Shown here piece after piece: positions 17,819 to 38,495 of a DNA stretch of 64,000 nt; within the stretch, counting starts at the first letter, position 1, and every line of letters starts with the position of its first letter. The DNA is taken from contig NZ_FTMO01000015.1 in NCBI RefSeq assembly GCF_900156025.1, positions 1 to 64,000 on the forward strand, written 5' to 3'. The notes under the pieces were generated by a model, which made no database searches, was not told the DNA's origin, and saw only the letters and a program-made list of their open reading frames with translations. The position numbers and the translations under genes were made by a program. The stretch comes from Allobosea sp. TND4EK4 (GTDB taxonomy: Bacteria > Pseudomonadota > Alphaproteobacteria > Rhizobiales > Beijerinckiaceae).

Positions 17819-17845
17819 TGGAACTGTTGTTCCATTTTTTGGAAC
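17819..17845 (+). promoter_or_regulatory. Palindromic operator, probably bound by the adjacent IclR regulator
   Basis: A perfect palindrome TGGAACTGTTGTTCCA (17819-17834) is followed after five T residues by another half-site TGGAAC (17840-17845), ending ten bases before the IclR start codon. GGAAC/GTTCC palindromes are typical IclR-family sites, and the position suits autorepression and control of the downstream operon. Confidence 0.6.
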
Positions 17846-17855
17846 TATCTCGCGC

Positions 17856-22477: not shown

Positions 22478-22530
22478 TTGCGAGATCACGGTCGGCAACG
22501 GCCCGAAAAGGGCCATGAGGGGGTAAGAGC

Positions 22531-24204
22531 ATGACACATCACCATGACGGGGCGCCGAAGCGGCACCCCAGCCTGTTCGAGCCGGCGACGCTTCTGCTGA
22601 TCGCCGTGCTCTGCGTCTTCGGCGCCATCATCGGCATGCAGCTTCTGGTGTCGCTCGGCATCACGGCGAACACCTCGCTGATCGGCGCCTTGGCGGCGAT
22701 GGCGCTGGCGCGCATCCCGCTGGCCATGTTCGCGCGCTATCGCTCGATCCATGTGCAGAACCTGGCCCAGAGCGCGATCTCGTCGGCCACCTTCGGCGCC
22801 GCCAACAGTCTGCTGCTGCCGGTGGGCATTCCGTGGCTGCTCGGCCGCCCGGACCTCGTCCTTCCCATGCTGGCGGGCGCCTTCTTCGCCATGCTGCTTG
22901 ACGCCTATCTGCTCTATCGCATGTTCGATTCCCGTGTCTTCCCGGCCACCGGGGCCTGGCCTCCGGGCGTGGCAGCCGCAGAGGCGATCAAGGCTGGCGA
23001 CGAGGGCGGTCGCAAGGCCGCGCTGATGGGCGTCGGCTTCGCCACGGGCGTCGCCGCCTCCTTCGTCAAGATCCCGCTCGCCTGGATCGGCTTCGCTGGG
23101 TCGACGGCCTTGACCGGCATCCCGATGTCGGCCTTCGGCGTTGCTTTCATCGGCAATATCTGGGCGCTCGGCATGTTCGGGATCGGCCTGCTTCTGCGCG
23201 GCTATTCCGGCCAGATCTTTGGCGGGCCGATGTTCGCGAGCATCATCCCGAAGGGCGACCTGATGGCCGCCTACATTCCCCACGGCTTCATGATCGGCGC
23301 GGGTCTCGTCGCCTTGATCCAGGTCGGGCTGCTGCTGTTCCGCCGCAACGAGGCGCAGCGCCAGGCCGATGCCAGTGCCGGCGTCTCGGACAAGGAGGTG
23401 CGCCGCGCGCTCGGCCTCGGCACGATCGGCTATCTCGTCATCGCGGTCTTCATCGCCATTGTCGGCGGGCTGACGAGCGAGATGTCGATGGGCATGCTCC
23501 TGCTCTTCGTGCTCTACGCCGCTTTCGCGGCCTATGTGCACGAGCTGATCGTCGGCCTCGCCGCGATGCATTCGGGCTGGTTTCCGGCCTTCGCGGTCGC
23601 GCTGATCACCCTGATCATCGGCATGCTGATCGGCTTCCCGATGCCGGCGCTGGCGCTGCTCGTCGGCTTCTCTGCCGCGACGGGACCGGCCTTCGCCGAT
23701 ATGGGCTACGACCTCAAGGCGGGCTATCTGCTGCGTGGCAACGGGGTCGATCCTGCCTTCGAGCGCGACGGCCGCCGCCAGCAGCTCTTCGCCGCAATGT
23801 TCGCCTTCGTCGTCGCCGGCCTCGTCGTGCTGCTGTCCTACCAGTCATACTTCGACCAGAACCTCATCGCCCCCGTCGACAAGGTCTACGCCGCGACGAT
23901 CAAGGCCGGCGTCGCGCCCGGCGTCGCCTGGCAGCTCTTCCTCTGGGCGATCCCCGGCGCGGTCCTGCAATTCATCGGCGGGCCCAGGCGCCAGATCGGC
24001 GTGCTCTTTGCCACCGGCCTGCTGATCAGTTTCCCGATGGCGGGCTGGGCGGTGCTGGCCGGCATCCTTTGCCGCCTGATCTGGGAAAAGTTGCGTGGTG
24101 CGGGGGGCGAGGGGGACATGGAGGTGTTCGCCGCCGGCATCATCGCCGGCGACGCGATCTTCTCCTTCTTCGACAGCGTTTCGAAGAACGTCTTCAAGCG
24201 CTGA
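22531..24204 (+). CDS. OPT-family (oligopeptide/metal-chelate) transporter
   Basis: 557 residues with roughly 14 hydrophobic segments and no signal peptide, consistent with the OPT superfamily. Recognisable blocks are NLAQSAISSATFGAANSLLLP near residue 75 and the C-terminal GDAIFSFFDSVSK. The His-rich N terminus (MTHHHDG) may be incidental. GAGGGGGT-like spacing and GAGGGGG before the ATG give a strong ribosome binding site. OPT proteins are proton symporters for small peptides or metal chelates. Position after hyuAB suggests import of a cyclic dipeptide-like or pyroglutamyl substrate; this is inferred from context only. Confidence 0.85.
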   Translation: MTHHHDGAPKRHPSLFEPATLLLIAVLCVFGAIIGMQLLVSLGITANTSLIGALAAMALARIPLAMFARYRSIHVQNLAQSAISSATFGAANSLLLPVGIPWLLGRPDLVLPMLAGAFFAMLLDAYLLYRMFDSRVFPATGAWPPGVAAAEAIKAGDEGGRKAALMGVGFATGVAASFVKIPLAWIGFAGSTALTGIPMSAFGVAFIGNIWALGMFGIGLLLRGYSGQIFGGPMFASIIPKGDLMAAYIPHGFMIGAGLVALIQVGLLLFRRNEAQRQADASAGVSDKEVRRALGLGTIGYLVIAVFIAIVGGLTSEMSMGMLLLFVLYAAFAAYVHELIVGLAAMHSGWFPAFAVALITLIIGMLIGFPMPALALLVGFSAATGPAFADMGYDLKAGYLLRGNGVDPAFERDGRRQQLFAAMFAFVVAGLVVLLSYQSYFDQNLIAPVDKVYAATIKAGVAPGVAWQLFLWAIPGAVLQFIGGPRRQIGVLFATGLLISFPMAGWAVLAGILCRLIWEKLRGAGGEGDMEVFAAGIIAGDAIFSFFDSVSKNVFKR

Positions 24205-24264
24205 GCAGAAGCCGGGTCGCGCTGCGCGGCGAGGCCCGGCGTCCTTTCGGAAAGGCAATTGCAG

Positions 24265-24936
24265 ATGCGCCGCCTCGGCACACTCACGATCGGACAGGCG
24301 CCGCGGCCGGATATCGTGCCGATCCTCGACGCGCTTCTGGACAACGGCATCAAACGCATTCACGCGGGCGTTCTCGACGGGCTGACGCGAGCCGAGATCG
24401 AGAACCGCTTCGCACCGCAACCGGACCAGCCGCGGCTGGTCACCCGTTTGCTCGACGGCTCGTCCGTGATCCTTGATCGCGCGCGGACGGAAGTCGCTGC
24501 GCAGGGCAAGCTGGAGGCCCTGGAAGCGCAGGGCTGCACCACCATCCTGCTGCTCTGCACCGGCCATTTCGAGCGACTCGCCACTGTCAAGGCGCGCCTG
24601 CTCGAGCCGGACCGCTTCCTGCCGGCCTCCGTCGCGGCGCTCACCCGCGGCGCGACACTCGGCATCATCGTACCGATCGTCGAGCAGATCGACAGCGAGG
24701 CTGTCAAATGGGCGGGGCTCGATCCTGCACCGCTTTACGCGGCTGCCTCGCCCTACCAGGACGGCCTCGGCGCCGTGACCGAAGCGGCGTTCGACCTGCG
24801 GCAGCGGGGCGCGGATATTCTGTTGATGGACTGCATGGGCTTCGTCGAGCGCCACCGCGCAGCCGCAGGCGCCGCGGGCGTGCCGACGATCCTCTCGAAC
24901 AGCCTGATGGCCAAGCTCGTGTCGGAAATGCTCTAG
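24265..24936 (+). CDS. AroM-family protein (possible racemase-like enzyme)
   Basis: 223 residues starting at ATG 24265 (a TTG at 24259 is less likely). AroM signatures are the start LGTLTIGQAPRPDIVPIL and TILLLCTGHFERL. E. coli AroM has no firmly established function. Two cysteines, Cys98 (LLCTGHF) and Cys190 (LLMDCMGF), sit where Asp/Glu/hydantoin racemases keep their catalytic pair, so a racemase or lyase role acting with the hydantoinase is plausible. That is inference. It is last in the iclR-hyuAB-opt-aroM group, 60 bases after the transporter. Confidence 0.8.
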   Translation: MRRLGTLTIGQAPRPDIVPILDALLDNGIKRIHAGVLDGLTRAEIENRFAPQPDQPRLVTRLLDGSSVILDRARTEVAAQGKLEALEAQGCTTILLLCTGHFERLATVKARLLEPDRFLPASVAALTRGATLGIIVPIVEQIDSEAVKWAGLDPAPLYAAASPYQDGLGAVTEAAFDLRQRGADILLMDCMGFVERHRAAAGAAGVPTILSNSLMAKLVSEML

Positions 24937-25002: not shown

Positions 25003-25410
25003 TCAGCACTGCCCGGGCGCACCGGCCAGAAGCAGGTGCCAATCCGCCCCGAATTCGGTGTGCAGCGCGCAGATCGCGTCGGGGCCGATGCCGCAGCAGC
25101 CGCCGATGATGCGGGCGCCGCGGCGCCGCCAGTCCCGCCCGAAGTCGCGATAGCGCTGCGGCCCGATATCCTCCCGCAGATCGCTCAGCCCCTCATTGGC
25201 CGCGGCCTCCCCGGTCTTTTCCGGAAAGGCGTTGGCATAGATGCCGATCGGGAGCCCCGCCTCGCCGAGCACGGAGCGGGCGACGTCGATGGCCGGGCCC
25301 ATGACCTCCGGCTGGCTGCAGTTGAAGAGCACGGCGGCGGCACCGGCCTTGCGCACCGCGGCGATGGCCTCCGCCACGCTTTCGCCGGAGCGCAAGGCCG
25401 GTGCCGCCAA
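25003..25410 (-). pseudogene. Homocysteine S-methyltransferase, C-terminal fragment
   Basis: About 135 residues matching the C-terminal part of the homocysteine S-methyltransferase family (usually ~300 residues): LRSGESVAEAIAAVRKAGAAAVLFNCSQPEVM and the zinc-binding GGCCGIGPD. The first ~165 residues are missing. The frame runs back only to a stop at 25444 through unrelated sequence, with no ATG. The loss falls where the chemoreceptor locus begins, so an insertion or deletion there destroyed the gene. Confidence 0.75.
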
Positions 25411-25466: not shown

Positions 25467-26954
25467 TTAACCGACCAGCTGAACCGCGACGCGATGTGTG
25501 GATCCGATCGCCGTGTCGACCCGGGCTGCGAGCACCGCGATCTTGCGGATACTGTCAGGTATCGCGCCGACAGAGTTTGCGGCGCGTTCCATGTTGCCAT
25601 TGAGCATGTCGGCCACGCTCGTCTGACCATGCATCGCCTCCACCGTATCGGCTATCTGGGCGTGCATGGTTTCGACCGCGCCATGGATGCGCTGAAGCGC
25701 GCCGGTGACCTCGGTCGTGATCGATTGAACAGCGCCGATCTCTTCGGTGATTTGGCGGGCCGCCCTGGCTGCCCCGTCCGCGAGAACCTTGACCTCTTGC
25801 GCCACCACAGCGAAACCGCGTCCGGCGTCGCCTGCGCGGGCAGCCTCGATCGTCGCATTGAGGGCAAGCAGATTGATCCGGCCCGCAATGTCTTGGATCA
25901 GGCCGAGCGTCCCGATCATCGCCCCGAGCTCGCATGAAAGCTTGCGAGTGCATCCGGAAGCGTCCGAGACCTGGCCGAACGCATCCTCCGAGGCGCGTTG
26001 CGACTGATGGATTCCGGCTGTCAGGGAATGGGCCAGAGCCGTGATCTCCGCCGTTGCCGTCACCATCGAACGCACCTCCTGCGAGGCTTCGGCGGCTGAA
26101 CGAGAAACGCTTTCGGTTTGATCCAGCGTCTGGCTCATCGCCTGTTTGACCTCACTCAGGTTCTCGTGAATGAGGCCCTTCAGCCGGTCCAGAAGATCGA
26201 ATCTCTCGGTGATATCGGTCGCGAACTTCATCACCATGTAGGGCCGCCCCGATGCATCGAAGATCGGGTTGTACGTTGCCTGGATCCAAAGGGGGCGGGC
26301 GTCTCGGCCGAGCCGCCGATAGCATCCCGTGTGAAACTCCCCGCGGCGCAAAACACTCCAGAATTCAGCATACGCTGCACTGGCCGCCTCATCAGTCGGC
26401 ACGAAGATGGAGTGATGACGTCCGACAATGTCCGCGAGATCGTATCCTAGGGCGTTCAACATATTGACGTTCGCATCAAGGATCTTGCCGTCAAGGTCGA
26501 AGGAAATCGTCGCCTGGCTCTTATCGATTGCGGCCACAAGCGCCGCCGTCTTGGCAGCTTCATGTGCCTGGATCGTGACATCGGTCGCGAACTTGATGAT
26601 CTTGTACAGTCGGCCCCGCCGGTTGAAAACGGGAGCGTAGGAAGCTTCGATCCAGATTTCGCTGCCGTCTCGGCGCTGTCGGCAAAATCGACCCGTATGG
26701 AATGATCCGCCTCGCAACCGATTCCAGAACTCCGCGTAGTCTGGGCGCACTGCGGCAGACGTCGGCAAGAACATGCGATGCTGCTTGCCGATAATTTCCG
26801 CCTGAGAATAACCCAGCATGCTTGCGAAACGTTCGTTCGCGAAAAGACAGATTCCGGTAAGATCGAACTCTGCGACGGCCTGAACGCGATTGAGCGCTGC
26901 AAGCCTTTCGCCAGCGAGGAATAATTCGAGTAATTTTCTCAGGGGCATGATCAT
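25467..26954 (-). CDS. Soluble methyl-accepting chemotaxis protein with two PAS domains
   Basis: 495 residues and no transmembrane segment, so a cytoplasmic receptor. PAS/PAC 1 (20-130) and PAS/PAC 2 (140-255) share the patterns [13 protein letters not shown] / [13 protein letters not shown] and end [10 protein letters not shown] / [10 protein letters not shown], as in the Aer-like receptors of many alphaproteobacteria. The signalling hairpin includes [40 protein letters not shown], the conserved tip. There is no CheB/CheR-binding pentapeptide at the C terminus. Redox or small-molecule sensing through PAS is likely. Base composition is less GC-rich than flanking genes, suggesting transfer. 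The start is ATG 26954 or the ATG two codons later. Confidence 0.88.
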
Positions 26955-27129
26955 TAAACGACGGTACCCGGATTAAAGCATTGTCAGCCATGGAATACTG
27001 AACCATATTGTTAGGGTAATTAAGCAGAGAATCAGGATTAATTCAGTAGTTAAGCCCGCACCAAATTGAGAATTGCAAGTTGAAGATTATCACGGTGTCT
27101 TGAATAAAGCGGGTTTTATGATATAATTA

Positions 27130-27510
27130 TCTCGGAGCTTCGGCGCTTTGTTCGGCCATGGCGGAATTTCGGTGGGTCATACTGCCGATGTGGCGACGAC
27201 CCGGGCGACCTCGTCGGTACATGTGCCTGCTCCTGCGATGCGCTGGAAATATCTTGAAGTGCAGCAGCGACACTGGTTGCCGAGCCGACGATCCCCGAAA
27301 GAGCAGAACCGGTGTCATTGACCAGCCGAACCCCGGTGGCGACCTGTTCGGTTGCTGTCGTCCTCGAGGGCTTGCCCGAGCCGAAGTCTGGACCACAATG
27401 AGCGACAGTCCGGGGAGCTGGCATGCTCCCGATCGACAAATATTGAATGGTGGAGACCCGAAACGCCGTCAGGCGAATAGCCAATTATATCAAGAAATAT
27501 CGCATTTCTT
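27130..27510 (-). pseudogene. Decayed PAS-chemoreceptor gene
   Basis: Three pieces of a chemoreceptor lie in three minus-strand frames. A PAS piece (27506-27375, FLDIIGYSPDGVSGLHHSIFVD) is followed by the post-hairpin tail (27358-27227, EQVATGVRLVNDTG and VAAALQDISSASQEQ) and a last piece (27189-27133, IGSMTHRNSAMAEQSAEAP). The signalling tip between PAS and tail is missing, so at least two frameshifts plus an internal deletion have inactivated it. It is a relative of the intact receptor downstream but not a simple duplicate, because the intact gene lacks this tail. Confidence 0.7.
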
Positions 27511-28063
27511 TCAGTAACGCTTCCACGAAATATCGATTTAATCATGCGATTAGCTCGTGATATCGCGGTCGGTGTACGCGAGGTGCGAGATTGGAGAAAA
27601 TGAGTATTCATTCATAGCTCTCGCTATCGTCGGTTTATATTCTCCAAAAATTCAGCTGTTTGAATGAACGAAATCTAAATCGGTGCCGCCAGCTTTCCTT
27701 CTGTACGCCATCTGACAGAGATCAGGCGTTGCTCCTGACGAGGTCGCTCGGCCCGTGGCGCTGCCCAGAAGCATCACGCAGGGCGTCGGGCATCCCGTAG
27801 GCATCGGCAGTGAAAGGGGAGCACAGACCGGACGGTCCAGCACGGCGATCATGCCGCGCGTGGATCTGATCAGGGGGCAGGGCCGCTGGAGCCTGGCCCG
27901 CGCGCGAAGGGCCAACTGCACCTTCACCTAAGATAGTATGAACCCTGCTTGGTAGAGAAGGGGCGCGACATCGCAAGAGCCAAGGTATCAAACCGCAGTG
28001 CTAAAGCGGATACCATGCGACTCGTTATCATTGCTTAACTCTTTGACGCGAATCGCGAAAAAG
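27511..28063. other. AT-richer intergenic DNA, no gene recognised
   Basis: About 550 bases with lower GC than the rest of the window. Minus-strand open frames around 27652-27991 have no recognisable domain or start signal. The stretch looks like decayed acquired DNA between the chemoreceptor remnant and the island boundary. The 175 bases at 26955-27129 are similar. Confidence 0.45.
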
Positions 28064-28090
28064 AGTGGTGCCCAGGAGATGGCTCGAACC
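28064..28090 (-). repeat. Displaced 3' end of tRNA-Leu: left attachment site of the island
   Basis: Bases 28064-28079 (AGTGGTGCCCAGGAGA) are identical to 38408-38423, which include the CCA end and acceptor/T-stem of tRNA-Leu(CAG). Across 27 bases (to 28090) 25 match, in the same orientation. The rest of a tRNA is absent and the T-stem would not pair, so this is not a functional gene. Such a copy is expected at the distal end of an element integrated into a tRNA 3' end. Confidence 0.7.
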
Positions 28091-28145
28091 CAACGGGATT
28101 GCTGCAGAGCTCTGAAAATCAGGGACAATTCCCACTCGCCTTAGA

Positions 28146-28334
28146 TCAACGAGTGGTAGCTTTGAATGAGTGACGAGCGAACCAAGTGTAGTCCGAGCAT
28201 CCCGGCTTCGGAAGCCCTATTGAGCGATGAGGCGGCGGCAGGAGCCGTAACGCCAGCTCATGCAGCGTGATGTCCCGTCGCTCCGCGATCAGTCCGCCGA
28301 GGAAGGCTTCGTGCGCATCAAGGTTCGAGCCGCG
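28146..28334 (-). mobile_element. IS630-family transposase remnant
   Basis: The minus-strand translation GSNLDAHEAFLGGLIAERRDITLHELALRLL resembles the N-terminal region of the IS630-type transposases common in Hyphomicrobiales. Sequence then degenerates (PPPHRSIGLPKPGC) where the helix-turn-helix linker should be, and the DDE catalytic part is missing. It lies just inside the island end. The rest of 28091-28617 shows no other gene. Confidence 0.55.
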
Positions 28335-28617
28335 TGGGGGAGAGCTGCCAATGCGATATTCTCGGGACGCCCGCATTCGGGCGGCGCAGTCAGACGATCG
28401 GCCCGGAGCTTCGAGAAGCGTATGCAGATCACGGATGATGTGCGGCGTGGCCTGACAATGCCGTCCAGGCGATCGTCGACGACGAGACATGGGACGCAAA
28501 GGCCTCTCGCAGCCGCGACACTGGAATGTCCGCGCCGTCATCGCGCTGGCGATGTCCGCCGGCTTGCCAAGCCTGCGCCAGACGGAGCTGCTTCCACGGG
28601 CTGGGAGATTCGACCGT

Positions 28618-29784
28618 TTATGGGTGCTCCAGCTCCCGCGCGGCGCGTACCAAGGCGAGAAACCGATAAATTCCATGCACGAATTTCCCGTAGGGCATCG
28701 TGACGAACAGGGCGAAGACGACACCGAGATGCAATGCGAGCAGCAGGCCCATGGCCGGTGTGGCCCGCAGGACGAGCAAGGCGAGCCCGGTGATGCTGGT
28801 CAGCAGCAGCATGAGCAGGAAGGCGACATCCATGCCGAACGGCGTGCCTTCGCTCAGGTCCGGATCGCGGCGCCACTTGTCATGCAAGAGGCCGATCGGC
28901 CCGATTACCAGCCCGATCCCGCCCAGCGTGCCGAGGACGACCGGGAGATCGTACCAGGGATAGGGAGCCTGCATCCCCAGCAGATAATGATAGAGCGTCG
29001 CCATCGATGTCGACGCGAAGCAGAGCATGAATCCATAGAAGGTCAGATGGTGATAGCTGCGTCGGCGATTGCTCGCCCGCTCACTGTCGTTCATGCAGCC
29101 CGCGCCGCCTCCGCCGAGATGACGCAGCCGGCCGGCATCCTTGATCGCCTGCCATACCGAACCGGTGTCGCGCAGCGCGCCATCCGGCTCGCCGATGTCT
29201 CGCCAGAAGGCTCTGACGCCCATGCCGATGGCGAGGATCGCAAACAGCGCCGCGGCGCCGAAGATCAAGACCATCGTGTTGTGCGGCATGAGCTTGTAAA
29301 AGGCGCCAGGGCCGGTATGCGTCCCGAATAGAACGCCCGGATCGGTCCAGGCGACGAAACCCGCGATGAAGATCGCGACGGCCACCGCGAGTGCGATCGC
29401 TATGAACAGCCCATTGCGCGCGAAGACGCCCGCGAACGCCCTTGGCCAGACGTATTGCGCATAGGATTCGGTGCGGACCTGCGCCAGCGCCGCCGGCACA
29501 TGCACGCTGAACTCGTGCGGAGGCGAGAACTGGCAATCGTAATAGCAGGCTCCGCAGTTGTGGCAGAGATTTGCAAGGTAGTTCAGGTCGCCGTCGGAGA
29601 ATGATCGCCGCATCTCCATGGCGGGGAAGACCGCGCACAGGCCCTCGCAATAACGGCAGGAATTACAGACGGTCATCAGCCGGTCCGCTTCGGCCAGCGC
29701 GGGCGTGGCGTGCTGCGCGCTGGACCCGGCTGTTCCAGCCGGCCCCGAACCCACCGTATCGCGAAGGAAGGCGAGTTCGTTCAT
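28618..29784 (-). CDS. tcuB: TcuB-like Fe-S membrane protein (tricarballylate utilization)
   Basis: 388 residues. The N-terminal part binds two Fe-S clusters: C40, C43, C46, C50 (CNSCRYCEGLCAVFP) and C74, C77, C80, C84 (CHNCGACYYDCQFSPP). The C-terminal two thirds contain about six membrane segments with histidines (SYHHLTFYGFM, LYHYLLG, LHDKWRRD) that may ligate heme. In Salmonella, TcuB reoxidises the flavin of TcuA and passes electrons to the quinone pool. Its start overlaps the TcuA stop by four bases. It is the last gene of the six-gene operon. Confidence 0.85.
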   Translation of the reverse strand: MNELAFLRDTVGSGPAGTAGSSAQHATPALAEADRLMTVCNSCRYCEGLCAVFPAMEMRRSFSDGDLNYLANLCHNCGACYYDCQFSPPHEFSVHVPAALAQVRTESYAQYVWPRAFAGVFARNGLFIAIALAVAVAIFIAGFVAWTDPGVLFGTHTGPGAFYKLMPHNTMVLIFGAAALFAILAIGMGVRAFWRDIGEPDGALRDTGSVWQAIKDAGRLRHLGGGGAGCMNDSERASNRRRSYHHLTFYGFMLCFASTSMATLYHYLLGMQAPYPWYDLPVVLGTLGGIGLVIGPIGLLHDKWRRDPDLSEGTPFGMDVAFLLMLLLTSITGLALLVLRATPAMGLLLALHLGVVFALFVTMPYGKFVHGIYRFLALVRAARELEHP

Positions 29785-31178
29785 GATAGCGCACTCCTCG
29801 CGGCCTCGCGGCCTGCAATTCGCCCGAACACGGCGCCGATCGTCATGCCTATTCCAGCCGCATAGCCTTCGCCCAGCACATTGCCGGCCATAATTTCGCC
29901 TGCGGCGAACATGTTCGCAGAGCCCCGCCCATCGTTCATCGTCATCCGAGCGTCCTTGTCCACGCGCACGCCCAGATAGGTGAAGGTGATGCCGGGCCTG
30001 ACCGGGTAGGCGTAGAACGGCGCCTCGACGAGCGGCCGCGCCCAGTGACTTTTGGGTGGCGATAAACCCTCCGTGGAGCAGTCGTCGAGGATCTTGTCGT
30101 CGAAGGTTCCGGGCCGGCAGGCCGCATTGAAAGCCGCTACCGTCTCTTCCAGAGCAGATGAATCGAGTTCGAGCTTACCAGCCAATTCGGCGATGGTGGG
30201 GGCGCTGATCGGCGGGTACAGCGACGGCATGAACAGTTTCAGAGACGAAGCATCGAATATGATGAAGGCGATCTGGTCTGGCTGCGCCGCCACGAGGCGG
30301 CCCCAGATCGCATAGCGCTTGGGCCAGATATCCTCGCCTTCGTCGTAGAACCGTTCGGCCTTGCGATTGACGACGATACCGAAGACGACGCAGTCGAGGC
30401 GGGTGATGATGCCGCCATCGTATTTCGGTGCGCGCGCGTCGATCGCGACAGCGTGGCACTGAGTCGGATCGCCGACTTCCCGGACATCATTGTCGAGCAA
30501 CAGCCTGAGCACGGTGCCGCGATTGTTGCGCGTGCCCCGGATAAGGAAGTTGTCCGCCGCTTCTCCCCAGTAGCGCTTGAGCCATTCGATGTTCGACTCG
30601 AAGCCGCCCGCCGCCGCGACGAGCGCGCGAGCGGGGAGTCTTTCTGCGCCGACCGTGACGGAGTGGAAGTGCCCACCCTCGATCTCGATGTCGGTGACCT
30701 CCGACTCATAGCGAATCTCAACGCCAAGATCTTCGGCAGTCTGGTAAAGCGCGTTCAGCATCGCGCGCCCGCCGCCCAGGAAGAAAGAGTTGGTGCGGCC
30801 GAGCGACAAGGTGCCGCCAAGCGAAGGCTGCCACCGGACGCCTTGCTCCTCGATCCAGCCCAGCATGGACTTGGATTCATGGATCATGAAGCGCGCCAGT
30901 GCCTCGTCCGTCTGTCCCTTGGTGACGCGCAACAGATCGTCGAAGAACTCGCTTTCGCTATACGGCCCGGACAGGCTTGCCGTCGCCGCGTCATGGGCAC
31001 AGCGCATGTTGCGGGTGTGGCGCGTATTGCCACCGCGCCAGAAAGCGTCTGCCGCCTCGAGGACCAGGACACTGGCGCCTTCGTTCCTGGCCGAGATGGC
31101 GGCGCAGAGCGCAGCGTTGCCTCCCCCGATAACGATGACGTCGTATTCGGGTTTCATCGACGGCGTAGGCGCAGTCAT
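29781..31178 (-). CDS. tcuA: TcuA-like FAD-dependent dehydrogenase (tricarballylate dehydrogenase family)
   Basis: 465 residues from ATG 31178. The dinucleotide-binding start YDVIVIGGGNAALCAA and AFWRGGNTRHTRNMR are typical of the TcuA branch of the fumarate-reductase/succinate-dehydrogenase flavoprotein superfamily. A C-terminal GRGSANMFAAGEIMAGNVLGEGYAAG closes the FAD domain. TcuA oxidises tricarballylate to cis-aconitate in the cytoplasm. Here the substrate may differ, since the neighbours add an aldehyde dehydrogenase and a hydroxyacid dehydrogenase. It follows iclR by five bases and overlaps tcuB by four. Confidence 0.82.
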   Translation of the reverse strand: MTAPTPSMKPEYDVIVIGGGNAALCAAISARNEGASVLVLEAADAFWRGGNTRHTRNMRCAHDAATASLSGPYSESEFFDDLLRVTKGQTDEALARFMIHESKSMLGWIEEQGVRWQPSLGGTLSLGRTNSFFLGGGRAMLNALYQTAEDLGVEIRYESEVTDIEIEGGHFHSVTVGAERLPARALVAAAGGFESNIEWLKRYWGEAADNFLIRGTRNNRGTVLRLLLDNDVREVGDPTQCHAVAIDARAPKYDGGIITRLDCVVFGIVVNRKAERFYDEGEDIWPKRYAIWGRLVAAQPDQIAFIIFDASSLKLFMPSLYPPISAPTIAELAGKLELDSSALEETVAAFNAACRPGTFDDKILDDCSTEGLSPPKSHWARPLVEAPFYAYPVRPGITFTYLGVRVDKDARMTMNDGRGSANMFAAGEIMAGNVLGEGYAAGIGMTIGAVFGRIAGREAARSALS

Positions 31179-31183
31179 GTTTC

Positions 31184-31888
31184 TCAACCGCTTTTGGTGT
31201 TTGATCGGATGCAACCCAGAGCCACGCTGAGCTGTGCCGTCGCAGCGAGGAGCAGCTCCTGCATGCGCGCAACGGCCTCATCTGTGAAACGTTCGTCCGG
31301 GCCGGACAGCGAAACGGCGCCAATGAGGCCAGTAGGCCCGAACACCGGGGCCGCCAGCCCGGCGCAACTGGGGTCGCGCTCGCCCCGTGACAGCGCCACC
31401 GGGGCGAGGTCTCCCTTGGGTGTGCCGTAGGACCGGATAATCCGGCCTGCAGCGCCCTTATCGAGCGGAAGCACTGCTCCGGCCTCGACACGGTCGAGCG
31501 TCGAATGATTGGAATTCACGCGGAACAGGCAAAGGCGCTCGGACTTGCCATGCCGGATGTGAAAGGAGGCGCTCTCGGTGCCCTTGGCAACGAGGTCCTG
31601 CAACACAGGCACAACATGCTGGCGCAGCGGGCTTTGCCGTTCATAGGCCAGTCCCAACCGGAGGGCCGAACCGCCCAACACGTAATGTCCGTCCGGCAGA
31701 CGCGTGAGGTAACCGGCACCTTCGAGCGAGGCGCAAAGGCGAAGGATAGTACTCTTGTAAAAACCGGTGTCGCGAGCGAGATCGGCCAGAGAGCTGGGTT
31801 CCGGGCGATGGGCCAGCGCACCGAGAATCTGGAAGGCGCGGTCCACCGCCGCGACTCCCTCCTGCTTTCCTGCCGCGTTGTCGGTCAT
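31184..31888 (-). CDS. IclR-family transcriptional regulator of the island operon
   Basis: 234 residues: helix-turn-helix at 12-65 (VDRAFQILGAL, SSLADLARDTGFYKSTILRLCASLE) and the effector domain with LPLDKGAAGRIIRSYG and GLAAPVFGPTGLIGAVSLSG. It lies inside the operon, overlapping the upstream dehydrogenase gene by four bases, so its level tracks that of the enzymes. Likely targets are the palindromes in the divergent promoter region at 35504-35605. The frame could extend to 32290, but homology and overlap support 31888. Confidence 0.86.
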   Translation of the reverse strand: MTDNAAGKQEGVAAVDRAFQILGALAHRPEPSSLADLARDTGFYKSTILRLCASLEGAGYLTRLPDGHYVLGGSALRLGLAYERQSPLRQHVVPVLQDLVAKGTESASFHIRHGKSERLCLFRVNSNHSTLDRVEAGAVLPLDKGAAGRIIRSYGTPKGDLAPVALSRGERDPSCAGLAAPVFGPTGLIGAVSLSGPDERFTDEAVARMQELLLAATAQLSVALGCIRSNTKSG

Positions 31889-32775
31889 GGCGTGGTGTTC
31901 TCCGGGTCGAGGACGCAGCTGACGACCGGCCAGTAGAGATCGCCAAAGCCAGCCTCGGAGGCCCGCTTTAGCAGCGCGTCCGCGTTCTTGGCACCCGGCA
32001 TCTCCAGTCCCAGTTCGGCCCCGAGCGCGAGCGCGTAAGACAGGTCCTTGCGCGCATAGTCCGTCGAGAAGGCGCGCTCCGGAAACTGCCGCGGCAGCAC
32101 CGCCTTCATCCCGTGATTCCTGAGAGCGAAGCTGTCCGCCGAGCCCTTCGTCAGGGTCTCGAACAGCACCCGGTCGCTGAGCCCGGACCGGCGCGCCACG
32201 GCGATTGCCTCCGAGAGGGCCACGACCGTCTCGACCAGCACCATGTTGTTCATGATCTTGACGATCTGCCCGCAGCCCACCGGCCCGCAATGGGTCACGT
32301 CGCTGGCGATGGAATCGAGGAGGGGGCGCAGCGTCGCAAAGTCGGCCTCGTCCGCGCCGACCATGATGCTCAGCGTACCATCCTCGGCCGCCTGCCGGGT
32401 TCGGGCGATGGGGGCGTCCGCATAGCGCGCGCCGAGCGTCGCGAAGCGGCGAGCCAGATCACGCGTCAAGTCGACCGGGGAGGTGCCGAGATCGACCACC
32501 AGCGTACCGGGGCGAGTGCTTTGCAACAGGCCATCGGGACCGTCGCAAACCGCCTCGACGTGCCGGCCTGACGGAAGGGCCATGAAGATGACGTCGCAAC
32601 CGGCGATCGCCGCGAGATTGGCGGCCGTCTTGATGCCATGATCAGCCAAACGCGCCAGCGGCTCGGGACTGCGATCGTATGCGAGAACGCCCAGCCCCGA
32701 CTTCAGAGCGAGATTGCGGCACATCGGCTCGCCCATCACGCCGAGTCCGATGAAACCGATGGTCTGCGTGCTCAC
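31885..32775 (-). CDS. NAD(P)-dependent beta-hydroxyacid dehydrogenase (3-hydroxyisobutyrate dehydrogenase family)
   Basis: 296 residues. Nucleotide-binding loop GFIGLGVMGEPMCRNL at the N terminus, substrate-binding DLGTSPVDLTRDLARR with YADAPIARTRQAAEDGTLSIMVGA, and catalytic lysine in GQIVKIMNNMVLVE. Such enzymes interconvert beta-hydroxyacids and semialdehydes. The substrate-loop sequence PIARTRQAAEDG departs from the usual APVSGG form, so substrate preference may be unusual. Paired with the aldehyde dehydrogenase (four-base overlap), it could supply or consume a semialdehyde. Confidence 0.86.
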   Translation of the reverse strand: MSTQTIGFIGLGVMGEPMCRNLALKSGLGVLAYDRSPEPLARLADHGIKTAANLAAIAGCDVIFMALPSGRHVEAVCDGPDGLLQSTRPGTLVVDLGTSPVDLTRDLARRFATLGARYADAPIARTRQAAEDGTLSIMVGADEADFATLRPLLDSIASDVTHCGPVGCGQIVKIMNNMVLVETVVALSEAIAVARRSGLSDRVLFETLTKGSADSFALRNHGMKAVLPRQFPERAFSTDYARKDLSYALALGAELGLEMPGAKNADALLKRASEAGFGDLYWPVVSCVLDPENTTP

Positions 32776-34220
32776 AGCCGTACCCCTCCGAGATAGATGC
32801 TCTTGATCTGCTGGTAGAGGCGCATGCCTCCGACGCCCTTCTCGCGGCCGATGCCGCTGTCCTTGTAGCCGCCGAAAGGGGTCGCGATGCTGAGCTGCTT
32901 ATAGGTATTGATCCACACCGTGCCGGCCTCGAGCCGCCGTGCGACGCGCAGCGCGCGCGTCACGTCCAGCGACCAGATTCCCGCGGCGAGCCCGTATGCC
33001 GTTCCGTTCGCCTGGGCGACCAGATCCTCCTCGTCGTCGAAGGCGAGAATGCACAGGACAGGCCCGAATATCTCTTCGCGGCAAGCATGAGCGCTTGGAT
33101 CGAGGCCGCCGATCAGGGTCGGCATGTAGAATGCTCCCTTCGCCAGGCCCGCATCGGAGGGCCTGCCGCCGCCAGCAAGAATCTCACCACCTTCGGCGCG
33201 CGCCGAATGCACAAAGCGCTCGACGTGTTCGCGATGCCGAAAACTCGCCAGGGGCCCCATTTTGCTGCCCGGATCGAGTGGCATGCCGACTGCGATCGCT
33301 TCGGCGCGGGCGCGCATCAACTCGATCATCCGCTGAAGCACCGGTCGCTGGACGAACAACCTCGATCCCGCAACGCAGGACTGGCCGGATCCCTCGAAAA
33401 TCCCGTCTTGCACCGCAGCGGCGGCCCTTTCGAGGTCAGCGTCCTCGAATATGATATGCGGCGACTTGCCCCCCAGTTCGAGGGCCACCGGGATCAGCCG
33501 CTCGGCGGCGATTTTTGCGATCGAGCGTCCTGTCTCCGTGCCGCCGGTGAATGACACCATCCGCACGTCGGGATGGCTTACGAGCGGGATGCCAGTCTCG
33601 ACGCCGGTGCCGGTCAGCACATTGAGAATGCCGGCCGGCAGACCGGCGGCGAGCGCGATCTCCGCGACTGCAAGCGCCCCAGAGGGAGTAACCTCCGAGG
33701 GTTTGACGATGACGGCGTTGCCGCCGGCTAGTGCAGGCGCGATCTTCTGCGCTTCCATCGTCAGCGGCGAATTCCATGGCGTGATCGCCGCCACGACGCC
33801 AATCGGCTCGTAGCTCGTCATGGAAAGGTAGTCGCCGCGAGACGGTGTCACCTCGGCGCCAGCCGTCTCGCAGACGGCCGCATAGTAGCGGAACGTGGCG
33901 GCGGCGCTGGCCACCTGCGCTCTGCACTCAGCCAGGACCTTGCCGTTCTCGCGCAGCTGGATCATCGCCAGATCCTCGGAGCGGGCGACGATGCCGTCGG
34001 CGATCGCCCCGAGGATCCTGGCCCGCTCAGGGGGACGCAAGCCGCACCATTGCGAGCGCGCCAAGGCTTCTTTCGCGATCGCGACGCAATGTGCGACATC
34101 GCCGGCGCCGGCGGCGGCGAGCTCGTAATTCGTCTCGCCGGTCGCGGGGTTCACGGAGGCAAAAGGCTGGCCCGATCCTTGGACGCGCTCTCCGCCGACA
34201 AAGAAGCCTGTTCTGGACAT
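32772..34220 (-). CDS. NAD(P)-dependent aldehyde dehydrogenase
   Basis: 482 residues, normal for the superfamily. Catalytic residues are Asn150 (TPWNSPL), Glu248 (LELGGKSPHIIF) and Cys282 (GSGQSCVAGSRL); the cofactor motif FTGGTETGRSIA and late EEIFGPVL are present. The chosen ATG at 34220 gives a start typical of the family, although the frame continues upstream. It oxidises an aldehyde or semialdehyde to the acid in the cytoplasm. It lies five bases after the binding-protein gene. Substrate unknown. Confidence 0.88.
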   Translation of the reverse strand: MSRTGFFVGGERVQGSGQPFASVNPATGETNYELAAAGAGDVAHCVAIAKEALARSQWCGLRPPERARILGAIADGIVARSEDLAMIQLRENGKVLAECRAQVASAAATFRYYAAVCETAGAEVTPSRGDYLSMTSYEPIGVVAAITPWNSPLTMEAQKIAPALAGGNAVIVKPSEVTPSGALAVAEIALAAGLPAGILNVLTGTGVETGIPLVSHPDVRMVSFTGGTETGRSIAKIAAERLIPVALELGGKSPHIIFEDADLERAAAAVQDGIFEGSGQSCVAGSRLFVQRPVLQRMIELMRARAEAIAVGMPLDPGSKMGPLASFRHREHVERFVHSARAEGGEILAGGGRPSDAGLAKGAFYMPTLIGGLDPSAHACREEIFGPVLCILAFDDEEDLVAQANGTAYGLAAGIWSLDVTRALRVARRLEAGTVWINTYKQLSIATPFGGYKDSGIGREKGVGGMRLYQQIKSIYLGGVRL

Positions 34221-34225
34221 CGATA

Positions 34226-35440
34226 TCACTTCTTTACGAGGGGGCATTCGCTTTCGGCCAGGGGACGGAAGGCCTGCGCGCCGGGCACGACTTTCGCGAC
34301 GCTGTAGTAGTCGAACGGCTTCTTCGACGCCGAGGGCGACTTCACCTTCACCAGATACATGTCGTGCAGGACGCGTCCGTCCGGACGGATCGCGACGTTG
34401 CGATTGTACATGTCGTTCACCGGCATCTGGCGCATCTTGGCAGCCACGATCTTCGGATCTGTGGTGCCGGCAGACTTGATGGCTTCCAGATAGTGCCGCA
34501 CGCCGCTGTAAGTGCCCGCGTGGATCATCGTCGGCGGAACCTTGCCGCCGCTCATCGCCATGAAGCGCTTGAACCAACTGCGCGTCTCGTCGGTCGAATC
34601 CCAGTAGAAGGACGTGGTCACCTCCAGCCCCTGCGCGGCCTGCAGGCCGAGCGCGTGGACGTCAGTGATGAAGACGAGCAAGCCGGCCAGCTTTTGGCCG
34701 CCGGCAACGATGCCGAACTCGTCAGCCTGTTTTGCGATGGTCTGGAGATCCTTGCCGGACGTTGCAAGTCCGACGACATCCGCGCGAGACGACTGCGCCT
34801 GGAGCAGAAAAGACGCGTAGTCGTTGGTGCCCAGCGGATGGGCGACGGAGCCGACGACCTTGCCGCCGGCGGCCGTGATGAAGGCCGTCGCGTCGCGCTG
34901 GAGGGCGTGTCCGAAAGCATAGTCTGCCGAGACGAAGAACCAGCTCTTTCCGCCTGCTTCGGTGATCGCCTGGCTGGTGATCTTGGCCAGGGCATAGGTG
35001 TCGTAGTTGAAATGGAAGCTTTGCGGTGAGCAGGATTTGCCGGTGAACTCGGACGCGCCGGGGCCGGTCACGACGAAGATTTTGCTCTTGTCATTCACGA
35101 CATTGAGGATGGCGAGACCGGCAGAAGACGCTGCACCGTCCGCGATCAGGTCGACGCCGTCCTGGTCGATCCAGCGCCTGGCGATGGTCGACGCCACGTC
35201 GGGCTTGTTCTGGTGATCGGCCGCAACGATTTCGATGCGCTTTCCGAGCAGGCTGTTGCCAAAATCCTCGGCCGCCAGCTTGGCCGCGGCCACCGAGCCG
35301 AGACCGCCATTATCGGCAAAAACGCCCGATTGATCGTTGAGCACACCGATGCGGATCACGTCATCCTTGGCGAGCGCCGCGATAGGCAGGGATACAGCCG
35401 CGGCCAGGGCAATTGTGCTGGCGAGTTTCATGAGAGCCAT
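34226..35440 (-). CDS. Branched-chain-amino-acid-type ABC transporter substrate-binding protein
   Basis: 404 residues with a cleavable signal peptide (MKLASTIALAAAVSLPIAALA). The mature part shows the type-I periplasmic binding fold of the LivK-like family: VIRIGVLNDQSGVFADNGGLGSVAAAKLAAEDFG, then RIEIVAADHQNKPDVA. AGGAGGAGG before the start is a strong ribosome binding site. It heads the six-gene operon, but no permease or ATPase genes are nearby, so it must borrow a transporter encoded elsewhere or act as a sensor. In related operons such proteins often bind aromatic or organic acids. Confidence 0.87.
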   Translation of the reverse strand: MALMKLASTIALAAAVSLPIAALAKDDVIRIGVLNDQSGVFADNGGLGSVAAAKLAAEDFGNSLLGKRIEIVAADHQNKPDVASTIARRWIDQDGVDLIADGAASSAGLAILNVVNDKSKIFVVTGPGASEFTGKSCSPQSFHFNYDTYALAKITSQAITEAGGKSWFFVSADYAFGHALQRDATAFITAAGGKVVGSVAHPLGTNDYASFLLQAQSSRADVVGLATSGKDLQTIAKQADEFGIVAGGQKLAGLLVFITDVHALGLQAAQGLEVTTSFYWDSTDETRSWFKRFMAMSGGKVPPTMIHAGTYSGVRHYLEAIKSAGTTDPKIVAAKMRQMPVNDMYNRNVAIRPDGRVLHDMYLVKVKSPSASKKPFDYYSVAKVVPGAQAFRPLAESECPLVKK

Positions 35441-35503
35441 ATGCGTTCCTCCTCCTGATGTGCCCGATGTGACGACAGTCCACGGGCTACTGTTTTGTCT
35501 GAC

Positions 35504-35605
35504 AGAACGACAATTCTATTAGCAGGAATTTTCGTAAGCAGGTGTATCGCTCTGTGCAAGCAAAATCTCACGCATAAATGTTCTGCACAGCAGAACTATT
35601 GTTCT
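35504..35605. promoter_or_regulatory. Operator cluster in the divergent promoter of the island
   Basis: Between the divergent binding-protein and TTT-receptor genes lie AGAACGACAATTCT (35504-35517), the palindrome TTCTGCACAGCAGAA (35581-35595) and an overlapping AGAACTATTGTTCT (35592-35605). GAAC/GTTC arms with a four-base spacer resemble the palindrome before the first IclR gene (17819). The region is AT-rich for this genome. The island IclR is the natural candidate to bind here and control both transcription units. Confidence 0.5.
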
Positions 35606-35711
35606 CTTGAAAAGAATTTCGTTTTGGGCCTAGATGACGCGGATCGGGAGCGTCCATGCGCTCTTGCAATCAGGGGCCACTGAAGAGCCCGACCGGAGGA
35701 AGGCGTCTCAA

Positions 35712-36689
35712 ATGAAGATCGACAATTCGCGTCGTCATATGCTGATGGGCGCTGCGGCCTTTGTTGCGGCCGGTTCGGTGCCCGCTATGGGGCAGGGCTA
35801 TCCGTCACGCGTGATCAAGTTGGTCTGCCCGTTTCCCGCGGGCAGCGCGACGGACACGCAGGCCCGCTTCCTGGCGGAGCAGATCGGCAAGGTTCTGCCG
35901 CAGAAGATCATCGTCGAGAACCGGCCGGGTGCAAGCGGCAACTTGGCGGCGAGCAGCGTCGCGCGCTCTGATCCGGATGGATACACCTTGCTGTTGGCGA
36001 CCAATTCCAGTCACGCCGCCAATCAGCATCTGTTCAAGTCCTTGCCGTTCGACCCGGTCAAGGACTTCGCGCCCATCGCGCGCCTGACGCGCAACCCTCT
36101 CGTTCTCGTCGTCTCGGAAGCTTCGCCGGCGAAGACGGTTGAGGACTTGCTCGCATTGGCAAAGGCGCAGCCAGAGAAGTTGAGCTACGGAACCGGAAAC
36201 ACCGGTAGCTTGGCGGCGGCCCAGCTTCTCATGACACTGGCTCAGGTGAAGATGACGCGCGTTCCATATCAGGGGACGCCACAGGCGATCACCGACGTGC
36301 TCGGAGGGCGCATCGACGTGATCATCACGGATGTCGCCGTCGTCCGCGAATTCGTCCAGACGGGCAAGCTCAGGGCGCTCGGCGTTACGACAGCCCAGCG
36401 CCTGGTCACAATGCCGGGCGTTCCCACCATCGCGGAGGCGGGCATAGCAGGCTATGATTTCGCGGCGTGGAGCGGGCTGTACGGGCCGGCGGGACTGGAC
36501 GCATCCACTGTTCAGATACTCAACCGTGTCTTCCTCGATGCCATGAAGGGGCCCGAAGCGGACCGCTTCTTCGGCTTGGTCGGACTTGAGCGCAATCCCG
36601 GCAACCCGGCGGAGCTCGCCGCCTACCAAGCTCAGCAGTCGGAGCTTTGGGGCCGCATCATCGTCCAGACAGGTATCGAGAAAGTCTGA
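35712..36689 (+). CDS. TTT-family (Bug) tricarboxylate receptor
   Basis: 325 residues; signal peptide through VPAMGQG, then the Bug fold. Hallmarks are YPSRVIKLVCPFPAGSATD, VENRPGASGNLAA, DPDGYTLLLATNS, FDPVKDFAPIA, VPYQGTPQAITDVLGGRID and GRLRALGVTT-like GKLRALGVTT. These proteins bind organic acids for TctAB permeases or regulators. The start at 35712 follows GGAGGAAGG. No tctA or tctB gene is in the window, so it is an orphan receptor. It is transcribed divergently from the operon and followed by the hydrolase after 18 bases. Confidence 0.88.
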   Translation: MKIDNSRRHMLMGAAAFVAAGSVPAMGQGYPSRVIKLVCPFPAGSATDTQARFLAEQIGKVLPQKIIVENRPGASGNLAASSVARSDPDGYTLLLATNSSHAANQHLFKSLPFDPVKDFAPIARLTRNPLVLVVSEASPAKTVEDLLALAKAQPEKLSYGTGNTGSLAAAQLLMTLAQVKMTRVPYQGTPQAITDVLGGRIDVIITDVAVVREFVQTGKLRALGVTTAQRLVTMPGVPTIAEAGIAGYDFAAWSGLYGPAGLDASTVQILNRVFLDAMKGPEADRFFGLVGLERNPGNPAELAAYQAQQSELWGRIIVQTGIEKV

Positions 36690-36707
36690 TCTACGGGGTG
36701 GGCCGAC

Positions 36708-37505
36708 ATGACGGCGTCTGAACACTACGAAGTCTTTGCGCTGCGATATGCCCGTATGCCGCAGCGCAGAGCGCACGACAATTTCATGCACCGCGACGTC
36801 CATGACGGCCCGATGCCAATGGACTTCTTCATCTGGATCGTACGAAACGCGCACCGGGTCATATTAATCGATACCGGGTTTGGAGCTCGGGCGTCGGCCA
36901 GCAGAGGGCGTCCGCTCGATATCGATCCCGTCGATGCACTGGAGCGCATCGGCATTCCGGCGGAGGGCGTATCCGATATCGTGCTCACGCACCTTCACTA
37001 TGATCACGCCGGAAATCTCGACCGGTTTCCCAATGCGACCGTCCATGTTCAGGATGCGGAAATGGCCTTCGCGACAGGGCGATGCATGTGCCATTCCGTG
37101 ATGCGCTATCCTTACGATGTCGATGATGTCGTGACCTGCGTGCGCCGCGTTCATGCGGGGCGGGTTTGTTTCCACGACGGGGACGCCGAGATTTTTCCGG
37201 GTGTTTCCGTCCACCTCTTGCCCGGTCACAGCAAGGGGCTCCAGGCGGTGAAGGTCGCGACAGCCCGCGGCCCGGTTCTGCTGGCCTCCGACGCCAGCCA
37301 TTACTATGCAAATTTTGAGCGCAGTTCACCCTTCGTGATCACGATCGATGTCGCCGCCACCCTGGAAAGCTATGCCCGGATGCGCCAGTTGGTGGAGAGT
37401 GACGAGCACATCATACCTGGCCACGATCCTTTGGTCGGCGAGCGCTACCCATCACGCGTCGTGAATGGAGTCACGTTGATCGAGCTTCATGTTGCGCCAG
37501 ATTAG
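36708..37505 (+). CDS. Metallo-beta-lactamase-fold hydrolase (N-acyl homoserine lactonase-like group)
   Basis: 265 residues. The zinc-binding motif HLHYDH at 95-100 (TDIVLTHLHYDHAGN-like context), a distal His in LLPGHSKGLQAVK, Asp in LLASDASHYY and final His in IPGHDP give the full two-metal set. Length and the N-terminal YARMPQRRAHDNF resemble the lactonase-like branch. It could hydrolyse a lactone or thioester of the island's substrate, which is a guess from context. Co-transcribed with the TTT receptor. Confidence 0.83.
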   Translation: MTASEHYEVFALRYARMPQRRAHDNFMHRDVHDGPMPMDFFIWIVRNAHRVILIDTGFGARASASRGRPLDIDPVDALERIGIPAEGVSDIVLTHLHYDHAGNLDRFPNATVHVQDAEMAFATGRCMCHSVMRYPYDVDDVVTCVRRVHAGRVCFHDGDAEIFPGVSVHLLPGHSKGLQAVKVATARGPVLLASDASHYYANFERSSPFVITIDVAATLESYARMRQLVESDEHIIPGHDPLVGERYPSRVVNGVTLIELHVAPD

Positions 37506-37737
37506 GTCGCCACGTCTGCATTGAGCGGCCGAAGCCCGAGGCCGGTACCTACCGCAGTGTTCTGGCAGCGATTCTGCCGGCGGCAAGCGGCTGACCCAGG
37601 CGGCTGACGCATCTGCGGCCGCGCGGGTAGGCAGGGTGGTCAATGTCGCCTCGTTGCCAGGCAAACGCAGGCACAACGGCAATGTCGCCTACCAGAATGA
37701 GCAAGTTCTCCATGGTGGCGCTTTCGCATGCGGTGCT

Positions 37738-38311
37738 GTCAACGGCGATGGCCTTCCAATCGGGGAACCGCGCGGCACCGGGATCCGGACTGTAGTCGCC
37801 GTGGGCTCTCCGCCGCAGCCTTACTGATGCCTGGTGGAGAGCAAAGGCCACCTGAGGAAGGAGACGCTCCCATGTATCGGCATCGACCCTGAGGCCGTGG
37901 CGACCCAGCAGGCCGTCCACATCTTCGCCGACAGCCTGTTCGAGTTTTGCGAGACCATTCCAAGTGTTTGTCGGCGGCCTCCAGCGCGTCCTCTAGCGAG
38001 TCCTGCGACCCTTCCCCGCCCTCCGGTTCGCCGGGGTCCGCTCCATACGGCGTGATAGCGTCCCGATATGCCTCGCCTGCGAGGGCAGCGACTTGTTCAG
38101 TCGTGAGACGCCGGGTGCCCGCCCGGAGCGAGGCCCAATTCGATGCGATCTGGGCTGCAATTTTCGCGTGCGCCTTCCGGGCCTCTGCGGCGTCCTTGGT
38201 GCGGAGCGATTTCAGGAGTTCGGTCTTCCCAATGACCTCGCGGAGGTCCGTGGGAACCGCCTTCCGAAACCAGTAGACGCCAGTCTTGGGATGCTTGAAC
38301 GGCCGCGCCAT
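37738..38311 (-). pseudogene. Tyrosine-type site-specific integrase, frameshifted and truncated
   Basis: The N-terminal domain of a phage/island integrase is clear from ATG 38311: MARPFKHPKTGVYWFRKAVP, LLKSLRTKDAAEARKAHA and EQVAALAGEAYRDAITPYG. Around 37940 the frame breaks. The next segment (DVDGLLGRHGLRVDADTWERLLPQV, LHQASVRLRRRAHGDYSPDP) is in another minus-strand frame down to about 37738. The catalytic C-terminal domain with the Arg-His-Arg-Tyr residues is missing. It lies about 100 bases from the tRNA 3' end, the standard place for an integrase. No gene is seen at 37506-37737. Confidence 0.8.
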
Positions 38312-38407
38312 CGATAGGACCATATGGATCACCCGATTGTATCACTCGGGTGTCCGCAAGCCGCTGATTTTCGCTAAGTTCTTGAGGTTGGTAGTCCTCA
38401 AAGAAAA

Positions 38408-38434
38408 GTGGTGCCCAGGAGAGGACTCGAACCT
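38408..38434 (-). repeat. Right attachment site: 3' end of tRNA-Leu
   Basis: This segment contains the acceptor and T-arm end of the tRNA-Leu gene and is repeated at 28064-28090 with 25 of 27 bases identical. The first 16 bases are an exact match and probably include the crossover site. Confidence 0.7.
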
Positions 38435-38495
38435 CCACGCCCTTGCAGGCGCCAGCACCTGAAGCTGGTGCGTCTACCAATTCCGCCACCTGGGC
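38410..38495 (-). tRNA. tRNA-Leu (anticodon CAG)
   Basis: The minus strand reads GCCCAGGTGGCGGAATTGGT at the 5' end and ends with CCTGGGCACCA; the seven-base acceptor stem pairs fully and the CCA is encoded. The anticodon arm is CCAGC, loop TTCAGGT, GCTGG, giving anticodon CAG at loop positions 3-5. A long variable arm (class II, as for Leu) precedes the T-arm GGAGG-TTCGAGT-CCTCT. It is the integration target of the adjacent island, and its 3' end is reconstituted by the element. Confidence 0.95.

Follow-up and report, generated by a model that had tools for sequence, protein, structure and literature searches.

A catabolic island at tRNA-Leu(CAG) of Allobosea sp. TND4EK4 and its probable origin in two stacked, decayed integrative elements

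The stretch analyzed here, hereafter the window, comprises 64,000 nucleotides of the genome of Allobosea sp. TND4EK4 (contig NZ_FTMO01000015.1, positions 1 to 64,000) and contains a catabolic gene set between a tRNA gene and a displaced copy of the 3' end of that gene. The sole tRNA gene called by ARAGORN in the window, an intact tRNA-Leu(CAG) on the minus strand (38409-38495), is the target of integration; on its right flank the contig is collinear with two relatives (G005 and G018) from 38.8 to 67.9 kb. Positions 28064-28090 and 38407-38433 are identical at 25 of 27 bases in the same orientation and share an exact 16-base core of the putative attachment (att) site (AGTGGTGCCCAGGAGA, 28064-28079 and 38407-38422), with both mismatches of the displaced copy falling outside this core. 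The original prediction had described this repeat, its core and its orientation, and had placed the displaced copy correctly but the tRNA-side copy one base off, at 38408-38434; with that 27-mer as the query, 24 of 27 bases match at 28065 and the runner-up on either strand of the whole window matches 17 of 27, leaving the repeat far above the rest of the window. The copy within the tRNA 3' end (38407-38433, read on the plus strand) marks the integrase side of an element designated A, and the displaced copy (28064-28090, plus strand), delimited by the repeat and by sequence comparisons, has element A to its right and a second element, designated B, to its left.

Beside the tRNA gene lies the remnant of an integrase of the DUF6538 type (37756-38323, minus strand), recognized by PF20172 and by tblastn with an integrase of the relative G036, in which an intact 516-residue homolog begins some 64 bases away from this tRNA gene and combines DUF6538 with a Phage_integrase match barely under the curated cut-off (26.8 versus 27.1 bits). 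The remnant aligns with residues 8-107 (63% identity) and 125-188 (55%) of that homolog in two frames, confirming that the integrase beside the tRNA is broken. By tblastn, only its N-terminal third is left, frameshifted, and the catalytic part was not found, the other matches in the window being weak (E of 0.8 or worse) and located elsewhere. At the opposite end of element A, a distal arm (28080-28181, plus strand) resembles the arm at a displaced att copy in G065: when 28064-28600 was compared with 67 genomes (the present one and 66 relatives), positions 28066-28181, core included, matched G065 at 75% over 116 bases (E = 3e-15). The G065 match likewise adjoins the displaced copy there, and the left arm of that copy is a different one. 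Thus, left and right arms combine independently, as expected of joints between stacked elements.

Element A has the marks of a genomic island: a far boundary marked by a direct repeat of the tRNA 3' end, an integrase remnant beside the tRNA, and direct joins of its outer sequences in relatives. Neither an intact reading frame nor the catalytic part of a functional, excision-capable integrase was found in it. No relaxase or conjugation family was detected in the 10 open reading frames (ORFs) scanned, nine of them inside element A, small ORFs lying outside the scan; with its truncated integrase and no transfer family among the ORFs scanned, the element resembles a cis-mobilizable element (CIME), which has lost its integration and transfer genes. 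Judged by its sequence, element A is a decayed, not an active, site-specific element in tRNA-Leu(CAG), and the integrative element that had been proposed here, bounded by 28064 and 38408 and carrying catabolic cargo beside a dead integrase, is borne out.

The DNA immediately left of the displaced att copy encodes the first 34 codons of another integrase, integrase B (27930-28031, minus strand), identified by tblastn with an intact 616-residue integrase of G032 (E = 1e-11, 82% identity; residues 1-34 match 28031-27930) that starts about 34 bases from the same tRNA gene. The stub and the displaced att copy are 33 bases apart, a spacing also found between integrase and tRNA in intact elements of that type (33-34 bases; G001, G032 and G050). 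The G036 and G032 kinds of integrase share about 30% identity. Comparisons at the tRNA were made with 62 of the 66 relatives, those whose left flank was fetched (1 to 46 kb), leaving out G006, G046 and G048 (no usable tRNA match) and G043 (200 bases at a contig edge). A scripted join of 27881-28065 to the tRNA, aligned to these flanks, matches across the junction in 14 of the 62 (in G032, over 260 bases at 89%), and the integrase-side arm of element B (27895-28063, minus strand) thus abuts the tRNA directly in those 14 relatives. Eight of them have an integrase match at the tRNA that covers more than 80% of the query (G001, G009, G011, G031, G032, G050, G051 and G055), five have a partial integrase (G019, G024, G026, G038 and G064), and one has none (G039). 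Arms similar to that of element B are also found beside displaced att copies away from the tRNA, as seen in a selection of 19 such copies from 13 relatives.

Because the joined DNA belongs to the integrase end of another element, sites with the direct join are not truly empty: the join of the left flank to the tRNA that the original prediction anticipated does exist in relatives, but what is joined is DNA of the element B type. Position 28064 is where element A meets element B, which is older and almost entirely erased, and is not simply a displaced chromosomal end. A single element, in which 28064 would be the displaced original end of the tRNA and the DNA to its left ordinary chromosome, had first been proposed, and three findings are compatible with it: the repeat, the broken state of the integrase, and the direct join seen in 14 of 62 relatives. 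It is nevertheless highly improbable, as the DNA left of 28064 encodes the N terminus of an integrase, in eight of the 14 relatives part of a full-length or nearly full-length integrase, and the similar arms beside displaced copies away from the tRNA indicate the end of an element rather than ancestral chromosome. A second layer just left of 28064, with the integrase B stub at 27930-28031, takes the place of the single-element structure.

Very probably, then, two decayed elements are stacked at tRNA-Leu(CAG), B having entered first and A later with the catabolic cargo. We infer that element B would have inserted into the 3' end of the tRNA gene and decayed until 34 integrase codons remained next to its att core. 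A later insertion into the same 3' end would have been that of element A, whose integrase differs from that of B but belongs to the same broad family; it would have rebuilt the tRNA with its own att half, displaced the end of B by 10.3 kb and imported a gene set for catabolism of tricarballylate and hydroxyacids. Loss of the catalytic part of integrase A would then have fixed the cargo in place. Tandem transfer of such elements has been observed, according to the available portion of PMC5704250, and no direct dating sets the two events apart, which would suit the arrival of A and B as one ready-stacked composite in a single integration; this is unlikely, as arms of the B type occur without element A at the tRNA in 14 of 62 relatives, and relatives of integrase A stand at the tRNA in G036, G061, G025 and G049 with no B-arm match past the att core among the matches listed. 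Since B-type arms and the kin of integrase A sit separately at the tRNA, A and B each occur alone.

Several observations weigh against the stacking of A upon B. Block 17819-24935 is syntenic in G005 and G018 but lies there 59-69 kb away on the other side of the tRNA, the result of either a rearrangement or an assembly join; with a rearranged left flank, neither how far element B extends nor the ancestral chromosome is fixed. For element B, a far (left) att copy was not found in the window. In G001, another att-like copy lies as far as 2.2 Mb from the tRNA (contig C1, 4178796-4178821), which stacking does not explain. No plainly unoccupied site is proved, 30 of the 62 relatives matching none of the five integrase queries used, and the compared genomes include no near-identical strain without element A. 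None of the other genomes searched yielded an element A with this cargo.

The cargo of element A reads on the minus strand from an ABC-type periplasmic receptor (34226-35440, PF13458) through an aldehyde dehydrogenase (32772-34220, PF00171, under the cut-offs of the 25 NCBIfam models listed of 43 matched), an oxidoreductase of the 3-hydroxyisobutyrate dehydrogenase (HIBADH) family (31885-32775, PF03446 and PF14833, short of the cut-off in each of the 10 NCBIfam models it matches) and an IclR-family regulator (31184-31888, PF09339 and PF01614, its start placed at the ATG overlapping the upstream stop) to tcuA, encoding an FAD-dependent tricarballylate dehydrogenase (29781-31178, NF006130 at 705 bits against a cut-off of 369 and TIGR02485 at 588 bits against 372.55), and tcuB, encoding the 4Fe-4S membrane protein of tricarballylate utilization (28618-29784, TIGR02484 at 465.8 bits against a cut-off of 246.6, and NF011607 at 471 bits, under its cut-off of 524). 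Because these genes overlap or sit 5 bases apart, those from 35440 to 28618 likely form one operon. On the plus strand are a TctC-type tricarboxylate receptor (35634-36689, PF03401) and a lactonase-like hydrolase of the metallo-beta-lactamase fold (36708-37505, PF00753, under the cut-offs of all six NCBIfam models matched), for which the top match in the Protein Data Bank (PDB) is 8x78, followed by AiiA-type lactonases. The blcABC-type gamma-butyrolactone pathway comprises a lactonase, a dehydrogenase, an aldehyde dehydrogenase and an IclR regulator. A pathway of this type was considered for the cargo and is retained as no more than a speculation, the AttM-type and succinate-semialdehyde models listed having all missed their cut-offs.

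NCBIfam cut-offs are passed in the cargo by TcuA (two equivalog models) and TcuB (TIGR02484) only. The TcuA and TcuB of a tcu operon are thus present, and the TcuC transporter is missing from the cluster: no permease family, TcuC included, was found among the island ORFs scanned, in which the ABC-type receptor has no permease or ATPase gene and the TctC-type receptor no TctA or TctB. What had been called a self-contained metabolic unit therefore stands as a catabolic set with two solute receptors but, among the ORFs scanned, no permease or ATPase of its own. TcuA converts tricarballylate to cis-aconitate, according to the title of a reference within PMC10468695, and the cargo may be used for such a conversion here. 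Salmonella tcuABC likewise has an adjacent TcuA dehydrogenase and TcuB electron-transfer protein, as the accessible part of PMC10468695 describes; in contrast to that system, the present cluster adds dehydrogenases, receptors and a lactonase-like hydrolase, has a regulator of the IclR type, and lacks TcuC among the ORFs scanned.

Similar gene orders occur in other organisms. With thresholds of 45-50% identity over 120 residues, and some loci cut by contig ends, the order receptor (solute-binding protein, SBP)-HIBADH-IclR-TcuA-TcuB was found at 10 of 80 tcuA loci of other named genomes, and at 67 of the 80 tcuA and tcuB alone were detected. A genome of another genus in the same family (G141) shows the same succession of receptor, aldehyde dehydrogenase, hydroxyacid dehydrogenase, IclR regulator and tcuA before its contig ends, and in G106 the first four occur without an adjacent tcuA. 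The hydroxyacid dehydrogenase has matches at E 1e-80 in 7 of 397 genomes of the family, and tcuA at E 1e-120 in 6 of 67 of the genus, the present genome counted in both, and the other five of the genus do not carry tcuA at this tRNA. The cargo region has no DNA match of at least 150 bases (E 1e-15) in the left flanks available from the 62 relatives. The segment 32772-35440 has matches in all 67 genomes, which in the relatives are at most 76% identical among the matches listed (best-scoring 69%) and lie in other places; these look like paralogs.

Cargo of this kind thus exists outside the island, and the original prediction, which had named relatives with the same gene order, no integrase and no empty-site strains as grounds for abandoning the island, is not refuted by it. 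The shared order in other genera (10 of 80 loci, and G141), at loci checked with integrase queries only, is what might be expected had the cargo entered through ordinary recombination, the repeat being an unrelated relic; such an entry is very unlikely, with the cargo bracketed by two ends of the att type and 28080-28181 matching the distal end at another displaced att copy. A plasmid origin was also considered and rejected: by megablast against 72,556 plasmid records, 59 matched and none had a single place covering 80% of the island, and the 20 matches listed cover 3-13% of it, all over the tcuA part, 18 of the 20 being annotated as tcuA. By tblastn, TcuA matched 492 plasmid records, the best at 83% identity. 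There is no sign of a recent plasmid source for the cargo.

Ccr recombinases are of the serine type. They are the enzymes with which the integrase of the tandem islands at the ssrA gene of Dehalococcoides, bearing vinyl chloride reductase operons at one RNA gene, is compared in the accessible part of PMC3146451. Those islands, some of them without an integration module, resemble the present ones in being tandem, bounded by the 3' end of an RNA gene and direct repeats, with an integration module beside that gene and a metabolic cargo. The differences are that the target in Dehalococcoides is a tmRNA gene and the integrase is of the kind compared with Ccr, whereas here the target is tRNA-Leu and the integrase combines DUF6538 with a weak Phage_integrase match. 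Stacking and decay of such elements have already been published for CIMEs and elements related to ICESt1, as accretion (PMC5704250, in the part available). According to the same excerpt, CIMEs, like element A, are flanked by att sites, have lost the integrase and are stacked with another element at a tRNA 3' end; they differ in that here no intact neighbor is seen that could mobilize the element, no transfer genes are among the ORFs scanned, and the att sites are putative.

The tRNA-Leu(CAG) gene is a genus-wide integration hotspot. With five integrase queries and a limit of 3 kb from the tRNA (three flanks being shorter than 3 kb), an integrase or a fragment of one was found in 32 of the 62 relatives; in 21 the match extends over more than 80% of the query, and in the remaining 11 it is partial. 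The 54 control segments, taken 3-6 kb away, contain none. In six of the partial cases (G018, G024, G025, G026, G049 and G056), only 24-65 integrase residues match. A third kind of integrase, that of G058, lacks a DUF6538 match and carries an Arm-DNA-binding domain instead. Elements with three or more types of integrase, two of them DUF6538 lineages and another of the Arm-DNA-binding kind, arrive, stack and decay at this tRNA, and such sites illustrate the capture of metabolic genes followed by their fixation through integrase loss. Literature searches on Bosea tRNA islands (judged by title), DUF6538, and Rhizobiales tRNA-Leu integrase islands returned no description of the site. In G047 (L054), other catabolic-looking ORFs lie left of the same tRNA, the start of one resembling, by eye, the hydroxyacid dehydrogenase.

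Additional att copies were sought with a 26-base pattern allowing up to three mismatches, run over the 67 genomes. The same pattern read backwards, as a control, had zero matches in these genomes. More than one match was found in 15 of the 66 relatives. The pattern does not recover the copy at 28064, which has five mismatches to it, counted by eye. In the cases on one contig, the extra copies lie 3' of the tRNA in the same orientation (G014, G015, G020, G050 and G042), at distances of 69-278 kb in the first four; G001 is the exception. The present genome has a third att-like copy on contig C16 (21424-21449; L005, 1499-1524), with no tRNA within 1.5 kb by ARAGORN; the distal arm after it resembles arms in G014, G051 and G055. 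Comparison of C16 with the tRNA surroundings of G018, G005 and G017 gave no match of at least 200 bases (E 1e-20), and comparison with the left flanks gave none of at least 250 bases (E 1e-15).

The 45 bases behind the tRNA (38364-38408) form a hairpin-prone trailer, a property that recurs in relatives with unrelated sequence. Composition-corrected folding z-scores of the trailer, computed against mononucleotide shuffles, average -2.13 in the 62 relatives (52% below -2) versus -0.06 in 186 controls (6% below -2). Raw folding energies are alike, with means of -12.35 beside the tRNA (n = 62) and -12.31 at 200-900 bases from it (n = 496). Mean z is -2.05 with an integrase nearby (n = 32) and -2.38 without (n = 32, two window trailers included). 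Because the comparison is limited to three other tRNAs, with trailer z-scores of -4.1, -0.8 and 0.6, nothing marks tRNA-Leu(CAG) as special. It is conceivable, albeit doubtful, that each incoming element brings a tRNA 3' end together with its own hairpin, which then serves the tRNA transcript as trailer or terminator. If so, the supply of hairpins would account for the tendency of unrelated arms to fold, and the survival of N-terminal integrase stubs would be explained by the host tRNA needing the stub region.

Left of the displaced att copy, a stretch of low G+C content (25467-28063, 0.54-0.57 in 1-kb windows centered at 26.5-28.0 kb) may be a further remainder of element B and contains a gene for a chemotaxis receptor (25467-26954). 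Adjoining that gene is an ORF (25003-25410) that we take to be a cut homocysteine methyltransferase by resemblance, and which may mark an edge of insertion near 25.4 kb. In G018, a 20-kb segment located some 42-62 kb to the left of the tRNA (L063) has only scattered matches in the present genome, the best at 71% over 1.8 kb. About 200 bases within the low-G+C stretch (27141-27346) are kept in many relatives, where they lie about 16-18 kb right of the tRNA, inverted where this was checked on one contig (G014, G050 and G009). A short segment inside element A (28239-28334) is also present on contig C37 of the same genome and in several relatives, at 72-87% identity.

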